Below, piece by piece: positions 43,631 through 55,257 of a stretch of DNA of 64,000 nucleotides. Within the stretch, counting starts at the first letter, position 1. Each line of letters opens with the position of its first letter. The position numbers and the translations under genes were made by a program. The DNA lies in the NCBI RefSeq assembly GCF_001438845.1, contig NZ_JQCL01000057.1, positions 62,001 through 126,000 of the forward strand. The letters run 5' to 3'. Under the pieces are notes generated by a model. The model saw only the letters and a list, made by a program, of their open reading frames with translations, had not been told where the DNA came from and ran no database searches. The stretch is from Lactiplantibacillus xiangfangensis (GTDB lineage: Bacteria > Bacillota > Bacilli > Lactobacillales > Lactobacillaceae).

Positions 43631-43870
43631 AAAAATCGTCCCCGTTGCAATTATTGCAACAGGGACGATTGATTAGACCGTGGTACCACCCAGCTTGAGC
43701 CGCAAAATCGGCTCCACTCACTAGCAGTTAACGGGTCTAGTTATTATCCGCCGGGCGTACCCGGACTGTACCTACCGTATTTCATCGTAATTAGCCTGAT
43801 CGGTTCGCAGCAACCACCGACTTTCTGACACACAGCTAATCCGCTACTTAAGAGTAGGGTTATCGTTCGT
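43631..43870 (-). promoter_or_regulatory. T-box riboswitch, TAC (Tyr) specifier
   Basis: On the minus strand, stem I shows AGTA on the 5' side and GAA-A-TAC-G on the 3' side, placing the specifier TAC at 43779-43777. The T-box core TGGGTGGTACCACGG is at 43692-43678. The terminator hairpin AATCGTCCCTGTTGCAA / TTGCAACGGGGACGATT with a T run ends at 43631. Uncharged tRNA-Tyr should allow read-through into the NhaC-type gene. Confidence 0.92.
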
Positions 43871-44052
43871 TATTTGATTATTGTGTGATGATAGCATGCT
43901 TGATTTGAAACGTCAACTAACGAATAAATTTATTAATTTTAAAATGGCTAGTCGTGGAGGCGCCCGATAGTTGATAAATATGGTAAATAACCGTTAAGTA
44001 ATGGCTGATAGACAGTACGTGAGTATAGGTAAAATGATAAAATAGCCGTAAG

Positions 44053-52002: not shown

Positions 52003-53172
52003 CTAGGCGTTAGCAATCAACCGAACACGGGTCACTGCTGGAATAGCGTTGAGCGCCGTAATCAATTGTTGGCTATTTTGATGGTCTAAAGCGTCGACGT
52101 CGATAATCGTGTAGGCCGTTTGGTGTTTAGCCGCGTTCGCCATGGTAGCGATGTTCAAGTTGGCAGCCGCCAACTTAGACGTAATCTGGCTCACCATGTT
52201 AGGGACGTTGTCGTGAATTACGGTAAAACGGTAGGCGGCGTTAAACGGGACGGTTAAGTCGGGTAAATTAATGGCTGACTTGACGTTACCGGTTTCTAAG
52301 TAAGTCATGATCGTCTTGGCGGCCTGGGTTGCCCCGTTGACCTCCGCTTCAATCGTGGAGCCGCCGATGTGAGGCGTGACCGTTACGTCATCGCGGTTAG
52401 CCAGCTGGGGTTCGCCAAAGTCGGTGTAGTAGTGCGTGAGGTGGTGCGCGTCCAGCGCTGCCACGGCCGCTGCATTATTGACGATGCCAATGCGTGAGTA
52501 GTTGAACAGGTTGGCGCCGGCGGGCATTGCCGCCAACTCGTCGGGACCAATCAAATTTAAAGTGTCCTCATTTTTAGGCACATGCACGGTGACGTAGTCC
52601 GCATGTTTGACCGCATCTTTAAGCGTTGCAGCGCGTTGAACTTGTTTCGCAATGTTCCAAGCGGCGTCTGCGGATAAGTAGGGATCGTAGCCAATCACGT
52701 TCATACCAAGCGTCAACGCGGCGTTAGCCACTAATGACCCGACGTGCCCCAGACCAATCACGGCCAAGGTTTTACCTAACAGTTCCGTGCCATTAAACTT
52801 CGTTTTGTCATGTTCGGTCCGCTGAGAAACGTCTGCCTCAGTGTGTTTGGCGGAGTAGCTGGTCGCGGCCATCAAGTTCCGTGAAGAGATAATTAACAGC
52901 GCAATGACCAGTTCTTTGACGGCGTTAGCGTTACTACCGGGAGTATTGAACACGGCGGTACCGTTGGCGGTCGCCTGGTCGACGGGGACGTTGTTGACGC
53001 CGGCGCCCGCCCGGACGATCACTTTCAGTGATTCGGGTAAGGTCTGTTGGTGCAAATTAACCGAGCGAATTAAGTAGGCATCGGGATGCTCGGACTGATT
53101 TAACGTGTAATTTTGAGTGAACGTATTGAGCCCAGCTTGGGCAATCGCATTATAAGTTTTAACTTGATACAT
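52003..53172 (-). CDS. serA: D-3-phosphoglycerate dehydrogenase with ACT domain
   Basis: 389 residues. It oxidises 3-phosphoglycerate to 3-phosphohydroxypyruvate, the first step of serine synthesis. The NAD fold has G-L-G-H-V-G-S-L-V-A, the catalytic Arg is in V-R-A-G-A-G-V-N-N and the His in P-H-I-G-G-S-T. A C-terminal ACT-like regulatory domain (about 318-389) fits feedback by serine. Its ATG overlaps the serC stop (TAATG). A serine-codon leader peptide lies upstream of the operon. Confidence 0.95.
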   Translation of the reverse strand: MYQVKTYNAIAQAGLNTFTQNYTLNQSEHPDAYLIRSVNLHQQTLPESLKVIVRAGAGVNNVPVDQATANGTAVFNTPGSNANAVKELVIALLIISSRNLMAATSYSAKHTEADVSQRTEHDKTKFNGTELLGKTLAVIGLGHVGSLVANAALTLGMNVIGYDPYLSADAAWNIAKQVQRAATLKDAVKHADYVTVHVPKNEDTLNLIGPDELAAMPAGANLFNYSRIGIVNNAAAVAALDAHHLTHYYTDFGEPQLANRDDVTVTPHIGGSTIEAEVNGATQAAKTIMTYLETGNVKSAINLPDLTVPFNAAYRFTVIHDNVPNMVSQITSKLAAANLNIATMANAAKHQTAYTIIDVDALDHQNSQQLITALNAIPAVTRVRLIANA

Positions 53173-54263
53173 TAGTTCAGCACTCCTTTGGCATGAGTGG
53201 CTTCAAAAGTAGCGAGATAATCGACGAGGGCGTCGACGCCAGCTAGTGGCATGGCGTTATACAGACTAGCGCGCATCCCGCCAACTAGTCGGTGGCCCTT
53301 TAGATTTAGGAGACCTTGATCCGTGGCGCCAGCAATGAATTGGGCATCTAACGCAGGGTCACCCGTCATGAACGGCACGTTCATCGTGGAACGGTCGCTG
53401 GGTATAACCGGGTTATTGAATAATTGAGATTGATCCAAGAAGTCGTACAGCCGGGCCGCTTTTTCTTGGTTGCGTTGGGCCATTGCGGCAAGTCCGCCTT
53501 GAGCCTTTAACCACTTGAGGACGAGTCCCGCTGCGTAAATGGCAAAGACCGGTGGCGTGTTAAACATTGATTGTTTCTCCGCAAAGAGCTGGTAGTCGAG
53601 CATGCTTGGTAAATTCTTGGCGTGGCCAATCAAATCGTCACGGACGATCACAATGGTTAAGCCGGCAGGACCTAAGTTCTTTTGAGCCCCGGCAAAAATC
53701 ATACCGAAGTCGGTGACGTTATAAGGTTGACCCAAGAAATTGGACGACATGTCGGCGACTAACGGGACGTGACCAGTATCTGGAAGTTTTGTGTACATTG
53801 TTCCTTCAATGGTGTTGTTCGTGGTAAGGTGAACGTAGTCTAAATTTTGGTCGACTGGTCCTTGTAGTTGCGGTAGCGCCGTGAAGTGGTTATCAGTGCC
53901 CGTTGCTAAAATGTCGACTTGGGTGGCCACTCGCCGGGCTTCATCAGCAGCCCGGCTGGCCCAATGCCCGCTATCAAGTAAGCCGATGTGGTGGTGGGCG
54001 GTGGCTAGGTTAAGTGGTGCGGCTGTAAATTGCAACGTCCCGCCGCCTTGGAAAAAGAGGACGCGGTAGTTGTTTGGAATTTGCATTAAGTCGCGCAAAT
54101 CTTGTTCGGCGTCGTTGATGACTTGTTCAAACAGTTGCGAGCGGTGGGAGATTTCCATGATGCTCATTCCTGAGTCTTGAAACGACGGTAATTCAGCTTG
54201 AATCTGATCAATGACCGGTTTCGGCATGACGGCTGGACCGGCAGAAAAGTTATACGTTGGCAT
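53172..54263 (-). CDS. serC: Phosphoserine aminotransferase
   Basis: 363 residues, PLP-dependent, converting 3-phosphohydroxypyruvate and glutamate to phosphoserine. The N-terminus Y-N-F-S-A-G-P-A-V-M-P and the PLP lysine in A-G-A-Q-K-N-L-G-P-A-G are diagnostic. GTGGGGA precedes the ATG. It is first of the serC-serA pair, 52 bp after an attenuator terminator. No serB is adjacent; the divergent histidine phosphatase is a candidate. Confidence 0.95.
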   Translation of the reverse strand: MPTYNFSAGPAVMPKPVIDQIQAELPSFQDSGMSIMEISHRSQLFEQVINDAEQDLRDLMQIPNNYRVLFFQGGGTLQFTAAPLNLATAHHHIGLLDSGHWASRAADEARRVATQVDILATGTDNHFTALPQLQGPVDQNLDYVHLTTNNTIEGTMYTKLPDTGHVPLVADMSSNFLGQPYNVTDFGMIFAGAQKNLGPAGLTIVIVRDDLIGHAKNLPSMLDYQLFAEKQSMFNTPPVFAIYAAGLVLKWLKAQGGLAAMAQRNQEKAARLYDFLDQSQLFNNPVIPSDRSTMNVPFMTGDPALDAQFIAGATDQGLLNLKGHRLVGGMRASLYNAMPLAGVDALVDYLATFEATHAKGVLN

Positions 54264-54306: not shown

Positions 54307-54345
54307 TAAAAAAGCCCTCGTAGTCAATTCGACTACCAGGACTGT
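54307..54345 (-). terminator. Attenuator terminator upstream of serC
   Basis: Minus strand: AGTCCTGGTAGTC-gaatt-GACTACGAGGGCT followed by TTTTTT. Its arms contain TCCTGGT (54341-54335) and ACGAGGG (54321-54315). Both words also occur once earlier in the leader, so alternative pairing is possible. Confidence 0.88.
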
Positions 54346-54425
54346 TAATTAATCAGTATTATAACCGCCCTCGTCATCGAATGTGATTGAACATCCGTGC
54401 TGGGGCTTGATTTGCTCACGCGAAA

Positions 54426-54494
54426 TTAGGCCAACACAGATGGGTGTGTAGACCAGGAGGAGACGATTAAATTAGCATTACGATTAATAGTCAT
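54426..54494 (-). CDS. Serine-rich leader peptide of serCA (22 aa)
   Basis: ATG 54494 lies seven bases after AAGGAGTG and encodes M-T-I-N-R-N-A-N-L-I-V-S-S-W-S-T-H-P-S-V-L-A. Four serine codons sit between positions 12 and 19. The double-Ser codons overlap the first TCCTGGT word (54458-54452), which can pair with ACGAGGG at 54374-54368. This is the arrangement of a classical leader-peptide attenuator: ribosome stalling for lack of Ser-tRNA frees the second segment to pair with the third and prevents the terminator. Function is inferred from sequence only. Confidence 0.75.
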   Translation of the reverse strand: MTINRNANLIVSSWSTHPSVLA

Positions 54495-54633
54495 AAAACT
54501 CACTCCTTGATTTCAATGACTACAATTTATCAAGAGAAACTTATTTTGTCAAGTCAACAAATGAGAAAAATTATGTCATAATTAAGAAAAGCACAGCGTC
54601 GTTCATAAATATTTAATTTTACAGGAGACTAGT

Positions 54634-55257
54634 ATGACAACCTTTTACATCGTTCGCCACGGACAAACGACGGCGAACGCCCAAAATTTGAAACAGGGCA
54701 CCATTAATACGGCAGTTACCCAGCTAAATAAGGTGGGACAACGGCAAGCGCAGGAGCTGCACGCGACGTTTGACATTAGTTTTGCCGACCGACTGATTTG
54801 TAGCCCGTTGGATCGAACCCGGGCGACGGCCGCGATTTTAAACCGGGGGCGGGATTTGCCACTGACCACGGATGAACGGTTATTAGAGATTTCATACGGT
54901 CAGTGGGACGGTCAAGATAACGCAAAGTTATTGGCAACGTACCCTCAGTACTTTGATCCATTTTTAAAAGACGTCTTACCGACCTACGTTTCGGTAGCGA
55001 CGGCGGGCGAGACGTTTGACCACGTCATTCAACGGGCCCAAGCCTTTTTGACAACCACGGCGGCGCAGTATCCCGATGACAAGATTATTGTGGTGACCCA
55101 CGGTTTTACCGTCAAAGCCATGGCGCTAGCCGTATTGCAACCGCAAGACCCAATGAGCTTACCGGAACCAGAAAATACTAGCGTCACTAAAATCACGGTG
55201 GACGTAGCCACGCAACGGGAATTTTTGAGCTATTATAATCGGCATAGTAGTTTTTAA
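54634..55257 (+). CDS. Histidine phosphatase family protein (phosphoglycerate mutase-like)
   Basis: 207 residues. The phosphohistidine motif V-R-H-G-Q-T-T-A-N gives H9 as nucleophile. A second histidine is in V-V-T-H-G-F-T-V-K, and E-I-S-Y-G-Q-W-D-G is the usual third block. It could be a broad phosphatase or a cofactor-dependent mutase. It is divergent from serC with a shared 370-bp control region. Since no serB is seen nearby, a phosphoserine phosphatase role, as shown for some members of this family, is plausible. Confidence 0.88.
   Translation: MTTFYIVRHGQTTANAQNLKQGTINTAVTQLNKVGQRQAQELHATFDISFADRLICSPLDRTRATAAILNRGRDLPLTTDERLLEISYGQWDGQDNAKLLATYPQYFDPFLKDVLPTYVSVATAGETFDHVIQRAQAFLTTTAAQYPDDKIIVVTHGFTVKAMALAVLQPQDPMSLPEPENTSVTKITVDVATQREFLSYYNRHSSF

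Follow-up and report, generated by a model that had tools for sequence, protein, structure and literature searches.

The serC-serA operon of Lactiplantibacillus xiangfangensis is preceded by a short open reading frame (ORF) with a run of serine codons, by a terminator and by a set of alternative RNA helices, all of which are conserved in relatives; the helices covary in part. We propose that these elements form a serine-responsive, ribosome-mediated transcription attenuator with the layout known from the his operon, and that it governs serC-serA; we put the probability of this reading at about 0.87. In such an attenuator, the ORF would be translated, the ribosome would stall at the Ser codons when serine is short, and this would turn the operon on, serine being the likely signal.

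The leader of serC-serA

The window (the whole stretch of 64,000 nucleotides that was analyzed) carries on its minus strand, in this order, a promoter-like site, a ribosome-binding site, a 22-codon ORF, about 120 nt of structured RNA, a T-tailed hairpin, serC and serA (Table 1). A preliminary description of this DNA had reported a 22-residue ORF with four Ser codons, and this was confirmed: the codons are TCC for S12 and S13 and TCT for S15 and S19, and the sequence that precedes the ORF, TCAAGGAGTG, carries a Shine-Dalgarno motif. GGAG or GGGAG is found 5' of the ORF in all 20 leaders of the genus. The motif TTGACAA...TTGNTA(A/G)(A/G)TT lies directly 5' of the ORF in 15 of the 19 Lactiplantibacillus leaders inspected and is displaced or beyond view in L016-L019. 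As the start of the leader transcript is placed by the promoter-like site only, the ORF and its ribosome-binding site would lie near the 5' end of the transcript, as expected for an attenuator.

The T-tailed terminator previously described ahead of serC-serA was borne out, as a hairpin (54343-54313, -18.4 kcal/mol) followed by a T run; a scan for consensus terminators reported none and missed this hairpin. The folding energy of the RNA from 54500 to 54300 was 4.2 SD under that of dinucleotide shuffles, with 0/200 as stable. No further copy of the leader was found in the window's genome except for a 31-nt partial match (E 7e-4), and TCNTCNTGGTCNAC had six matches outside the leader, i.e. 7 in total versus 4 in the reversed control, which is about the control level.

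A divergent gene of the histidine-phosphatase family (plus strand, 54634-55257; no NCBIfam cut-off reached) adjoins serCA. Such a gene lies within 600 nt of serC at 28 of the 37 leader-bearing Lactobacillaceae loci versus 1 of the 38 leaderless ones. No serB exceeded its cut-off in the window's genome, a cut-off that was passed in just 7 of 14 control genomes, and the gene at 54634-55257 may be the missing phosphoserine phosphatase.

Table 1. Features of the serC-serA leader region (window coordinates)
Feature	Position	Strand	Basis
Sigma-70-type promoter-like site, TTGACA-17-TAAATT	54524..54552	-	motif scan
Shine-Dalgarno AAGGAG of the leader ORF	54503..54508	-	sequence
Leader peptide ORF MTINRNANLIVSSWSTHPSVLA, 22 aa, stop included	54426..54494	-	ORF reading
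Tandem Ser codons TCC TCC (S12, S13), predicted stall site	54456..54461	-	invariant in 20/20 genus leaders
Segment 1 GGTCTACACA, OFF partner segment 2	54445..54454	-	segment swaps, alignment
Segment 2 CATCTGTGTTGGCC, end of ORF; partner 1 (OFF) or 3 (ON)	54429..54442	-	swaps, alignment, energies
Segment 3 GCCCCAGCACGGATGT; partner 2 (ON) or 4 (OFF)	54391..54406	-	swaps, alignment, energies
Segment 4 ACATTCGATGACGAGGGC; partner 3 (OFF) or 5 (ON, antiterminator)	54367..54384	-	folding, swaps, alignment, energies
Segment 5 AGTCCTGGTAGTC, terminator 5' arm, antiterminator partner of 4	54331..54343	-	hairpin search, swaps, alignment
Segment 6 GACTACGAGGGCT and T run, terminator 3' arm and tail	54308..54325	-	hairpin search, alignment
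serC, phosphoserine transaminase	53172..54263	-	TIGR01364, 476 bits, above cut-off
serA-type D-3-phosphoglycerate dehydrogenase	52003..53172	-	TIGR01327 best match, 240 bits, under its cut-off

Alternative pairing of the leader RNA

The attenuator of the enterobacterial his operon has a six-segment layout. Comparison of the 20 Lactiplantibacillus leaders points to a his-like arrangement of six segments, in which helices 1:2, 3:4 and 5:6 would make up the OFF state and helices 2:3 and 4:5 the ON state. Helix 1:2 joins GGTCTACACA to TGTGTTGGCC, helix 2:3 joins the end of the ORF, CATCTGTGTTGG, to the downstream sequence CCAGCACGGATG, and helix 3:4 joins GCCC...GGATGT to ACATTC...GGGC. As in the enterobacterial his attenuator, the segments alternate in the same two combinations, tandem regulatory codons stand just 5' of the first switching helix, and the terminator is T-tailed. 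Unlike there, the codons are for serine rather than histidine, the lineage is that of the Firmicutes, and no match to the Rfam His leader was found at this site; the leader would work like a His leader, of which it is no homologue by the Rfam covariance test.

With ample serine, the ribosome would pass the Ser codons, reach the stop codon and cover segment 2; segments 3 and 4 would then pair, leaving 5 free for 6, and the terminator would form. With a shortage of seryl-tRNA, mainly of the UCN box, the ribosome would stall with TCC TCC in its A site and cover segment 1; segments 2 and 3 would pair, 4 would be free for 5, the terminator would be prevented and serCA transcribed.

The mutually exclusive helices have evolutionary support, which is weaker for those of the ON state. 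Swapping segments between species weakened helices 2:3 (p 0.003), 3:4 (0/5000), 4:5 and 5:6 (p 0.0002 each); these p-values are uncorrected for kinship and, the species being related, too small. The OFF helices contain 9 pairs with double changes versus a mean of 2.8 in shuffles (0/500 reach 9). Seven of the nine are in the terminator, the position of which is presupposed by our trimming of the genus sequences at the first T run, two are in helix 3:4 and none in 1:2. The four double-change pairs of the ON helices (one in 2:3, three in 4:5) are matched by 113/500 shuffles, and the covariation score of these helices is reached by 0 of 500. The double changes in 2:3 and 3:4 come from a single pair of related genomes (L014 and L015).

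Pairing energies were compared with 50 shuffles per leader. Among the 20 genus leaders, p ≤ 0.05 was obtained in 14 for the energy of helix 2:3, in 14 for that of 4:5 and in 13 for the folding of the stretch from ORF to terminator; the corresponding numbers among 37 leaders of other genera (see below) were 21, 29 and 25. Direct pairing between the partners of segments 2 and 5, in a single hairpin, reached this threshold in only 14/37 leaders of other genera and 6/20 of the genus. The four leaders of genera g7 and g17 fail all three energy tests and may use a shorter layout; the four of g13 fail that for helix 2:3.

Helix 1:2 contains an internal mismatch (54450/54433 in the window), which is T-T, A-C or T-C across the 20 genomes and never A-T, and its energy is constant within 0.4 kcal/mol, so that pairing is more stable with swapped partners than with the cognate ones, as though the helix were kept at a fixed stability.

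We considered the possibility, put forward in the preliminary description, that the leader is a four-segment attenuator of the trp type, in which TCCTGGT within the Ser codons pairs with ACGAGGG, which otherwise pairs with the 5' arm of the terminator. Both words are present, alternating as described (TCCTGGT starting at 54458 and 54341, ACGAGGG at 54374 and 54321), and each word pair can form 6 of 7 pairs, one G-U among them, with one G-G mismatch. With segment 1 extended, a segment-swap test preferred the cognate partners (p 0.0004), and some leaders of g7 and g17 resemble a shortened form with the end of the ORF paired to the 5' arm of the terminator. However, no double change was found in the TCCTGGT-ACGAGGG helix: its segment 1 is invariant in 20/20 leaders while its partner varies, so that this helix cannot show covariation. 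Moreover, only 77.7% of its cells are able to pair, versus 94.7% and 86.4% for the OFF and ON helices of the six-segment arrangement; a swap signal is impossible inside a 7-nt word, and that obtained with the longer segment comes from L016-L020, in which the flank differs; and the predicted pairs of this helix average at most about 1.0 at any position of the ribosome. We therefore consider the four-segment scheme very unlikely. The switch is better explained through helix 2:3, the downstream strand of which is absent from that description. Of the peptide attenuation proposed there, the kind is supported (a Ser-codon peptide, attenuation, serine as the likely signal) and the four-segment detail is not; partial covariation is seen in the six-segment helices, mostly the terminator.

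The effect of a ribosome on the six-segment RNA was modeled by equilibrium folding of partial transcripts, with an assumed footprint from -14 to +15 of the P site as the single setting. In the 20 genus leaders, antiterminator pairs were most numerous with the A site at GTC/TCC/TCC/TGG (means 6.6 to 7.7); the mean was 5.9 in the ribosome-free RNA and fell to 3.6 to 5.2 with the A site at ACA or beyond. The 2:3 pairs were maximal at these same codons (8.9 to 11.4). Over 57 leaders (20 of the genus and 37 others), the fraction of the terminator 5' arm paired upstream was 0.66 with the ribosome at the Ser run versus 0.42 with the ribosome at the stop codon (37/57 up, 8 down; Wilcoxon p 1e-7, uncorrected for kinship). 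The ribosome-free state (0.64) did not differ from the stalled one (17 up, 17 down); models without a ribosome thus give antitermination on average, which is not what superattenuation would demand unless hairpin 1:2 were to fold first. For the window's own leader, the upstream-pairing measure scarcely changes (0.74 with the ribosome at the Ser run, 0.72 with it at the stop codon), although the number of antiterminator pairs falls from 8.8 to 4.6. Five Apilactobacillus leaders (g24) were mostly antiterminated in all states modeled (0.74 to 0.99).

Conservation of the serine run

The leader was matched in 20 of 21 Lactiplantibacillus genomes, the exception (G007) being without serC; it thus accompanies serC in 20/20 genomes of the genus that have this gene. 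The ORF lies 217 to 362 nt upstream of serC in 19 of them. In G002 (contig C10; L010, L021), leader and terminator are intact and set apart from serC by about 600 nt of extra DNA. All 20 leaders share the core SSWST and the codons TCC TCC TGG without change, and the Ser codons are thereby kept in relatives, as the preliminary description would lead one to expect; S19 is replaced by Ala in one leader and by Thr in two, which leaves just three of the four Ser positions of the window as serine in every leader.

A search with the exact pattern in 301 genomes of the family gave 14 matches, all in Lactiplantibacillus. This result was misleading about the family: the search missed other genera because the sequence of the leader has diverged. 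We therefore looked for the ORF itself. serC is present in 84 of 201 sampled Lactobacillaceae genomes, 76 of them outside Lactiplantibacillus, and the 600 nt 5' of serC were read at 75 of these 76 loci (G027, a serC fragment, was left out). A filter for a short ORF led by a Shine-Dalgarno sequence (which the filter itself demands) with at least 3 Ser within six residues found a Ser-run ORF at 37/75 loci, which represent 12 of 20 genera; the ORF ends 93 to 191 nt ahead of serC. The reverse strand yielded 0/75, dinucleotide shuffles a mean of 1.4 and a maximum of 3 of 75, and the identical count for other residues 14 for Asn and at most 2 for the rest.

An intrinsic terminator, i.e. a hairpin followed by T's, stands between the ORF and the first structural gene in 57/57 leaders. 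With a threshold of -13 kcal/mol or lower and a following TTTT, the hairpin was found at 37/37 leader loci outside the genus, versus 7/38 leaderless loci (last 150 nt) and 19/740 shuffles.

Among species-labelled loci (the best 80, which overlap the sample of 75), the leader is present in 25 of 32 Lactobacillaceae and 2 of 48 others. It occurs in Lentilactobacillus, Secundilactobacillus, Companilactobacillus, Apilactobacillus, Ligilactobacillus equi and Lactobacillus equicursoris, and is absent from the named loci of Paucilactobacillus (3), Liquorilactobacillus (2), Lacticaseibacillus pantheris and Companilactobacillus zhongbaensis; the named loci L223 and L231 were still leaderless under relaxed rules. 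In other families of the order, where 63 of 102 serC loci outside Lactobacillaceae were examined, 2/63 passed a slightly looser filter and 1 the matched filter, which is the level of chance. serA was not found within 600 nt 5' of serC at any of 138 loci.

The Ser-run leader is lacking at 38/75 family loci outside the genus. Eighteen leaderless loci were viewed by eye, and some in g2, g39 and g17 show a terminator-like hairpin and a non-Ser ORF. L105, L107, L109, L110, L115 and L116 (g2, g39) share similar upstream sequence with a terminator-like hairpin and no Ser-run ORF; these six regions are perhaps another kind of leader.

We also considered that the leader might be a riboswitch or be bound by a protein, the ORF being incidental or only tuning the folding of the RNA. 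Nucleotide conservation within the ORF is indeed strong across the genus. Across genera, however, the Ser run is maintained with differing nucleotides (TCA TCC TCC, TCT TCC, TCC TCA TCA, AGC TCA and others), and the ORF starts with ATG in 37/37 leaders. Furthermore, no Rfam family matched the leader above chance; a match to NsiR1 (E 0.57, below cut-off) was taken as fortuitous. Such an RNA-only device is therefore highly improbable. That the leader senses something other than serine, be it tryptophan (TGG) or, through an arrest peptide, a general slowdown of translation, can practically be dismissed: the TGG codon does not vary within the genus, and the model is permissive for a ribosome with its A site at TGG as well, yet in 14 of the 37 leaders from other genera Trp is absent from the eight residues beginning with the Ser run (SSKST, SSLST, SSSRS, SSSTQ and others), and this run is retained where Trp is lost, so that tryptophan was rejected as the signal, and the peptide outside the Ser run is scarcely conserved between genera, which speaks against an arrest peptide.

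A run of codons for the amino acid made by the operon, conserved in relatives, is what attenuation by serine predicts, and the choice of codons within it is biased. Of the 96 codons that make up the first Ser runs of these 37 leaders, 56 are UCC and 92 UCN; among 842 background Ser codons (ORFs of at least 200 aa, at 19 of those 37 loci), UCC makes up 10.8%, UCN about 62% and AGY 38%. Serine starvation of Bacillus subtilis is described as raising ribosome density at UCN, not at AGC/AGU (PMC3862929). The preference for UCC may be due in part to RNA pairing.

T-boxes and known attenuators

The preliminary description had stated that no T-box is present. This holds for the leader, at which neither the covariance model (RF00230) nor the core motif GGTGGNACC gave a match; the core motif was also not found 5' of the 75 family serC loci, nor a T-box in the 20 loci scanned with Rfam. 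It does not hold for the window, which has a T-box match at another gene (43658-43872, minus strand; 64 bits, under the Rfam gathering score of 93). The ORF that follows it, at about 43601, is by eye a candidate NhaC-type transporter. The genome has 32 T-box matches, 13 of them above the Rfam cut-off. Two lie just 5' of its two serS genes, one above the cut-off (L191, G000 C100 323257-323457, 106 bits) and one below it (L209, C98 93224-93413, 76 bits); the specifier of the former may be UCC. With T-box matches at both serS genes, serCA is an exception within its own amino acid.

Two known regulators of serine genes differ from this leader in kind. The Ser T-box of Paenibacillus polymyxa serA, as presented in PMC8002221, likewise places a gene of serine biosynthesis under serine control via transcription antitermination; it binds tRNA, involves no peptide and has AGC as its specifier, in contrast to the UCN run found here. 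The alphaproteobacterial serC motif (RF00517) also precedes serC-serA. Its description in PMC1273637 is of two short stems, proposed to mask the ribosome-binding site of serC, and includes no leader peptide, and its covariance model gave no match at the leader.

Leader peptides with codons for the product of their operon are known in Firmicutes, e.g. Rli60 of Listeria monocytogenes ilv-leu, with a terminator and an antiterminator, which was tested by directed mutation in Listeria (PMC5864092), and the Leu-rich attenuator peptide of Staphylococcus aureus ilv-leu, for which selected mutants in S. aureus are reported (PMC5794164). Both concern branched-chain amino acids and a different operon. 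Bacillus hisS*/hisZ (PMC2965389) and some Firmicute his operons (PMC9413887) have His leader peptides, with attenuation predicted where relatives use T-boxes; the amino acid and the lineage are different. The statement in the preliminary description that peptide attenuation would be unusual for Lactobacillales is tempered by PMC5794164, which cites predictions of ilv peptide attenuators for Lactococcus and Streptococcus. Among the leader-peptide attenuators encountered in the literature, the amino acids sensed are His, Trp, Leu, Ile/Val, Thr, Phe (PMC3766115) and Cys (PMC8632094). A serine leader peptide was not found among the matches listed in the open-access literature, nor is there an Rfam family. 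The kind of attenuation is thus known, also in Firmicutes, and its specificity for serine would be new.

We see an even chance that the sensor reads the UCN box of seryl-tRNA (mostly UCC), which on the analogy of B. subtilis is the one slowed by serine starvation, and not serine generally, and that it originated in Lactobacillaceae, at a single serCA locus, and is now present in at least 13 genera, both serS genes of the cell having T-boxes. If true, two unrelated RNA sensors would monitor one aminoacyl-tRNA, divided between synthetase and biosynthesis genes. A serine leader in a family that makes heavy use of T-boxes bears on why one system replaces the other, and the strong choice of UCN makes isoacceptor-selective starvation testable in food bacteria, in which the leader would be a ready sensor of serine limitation.
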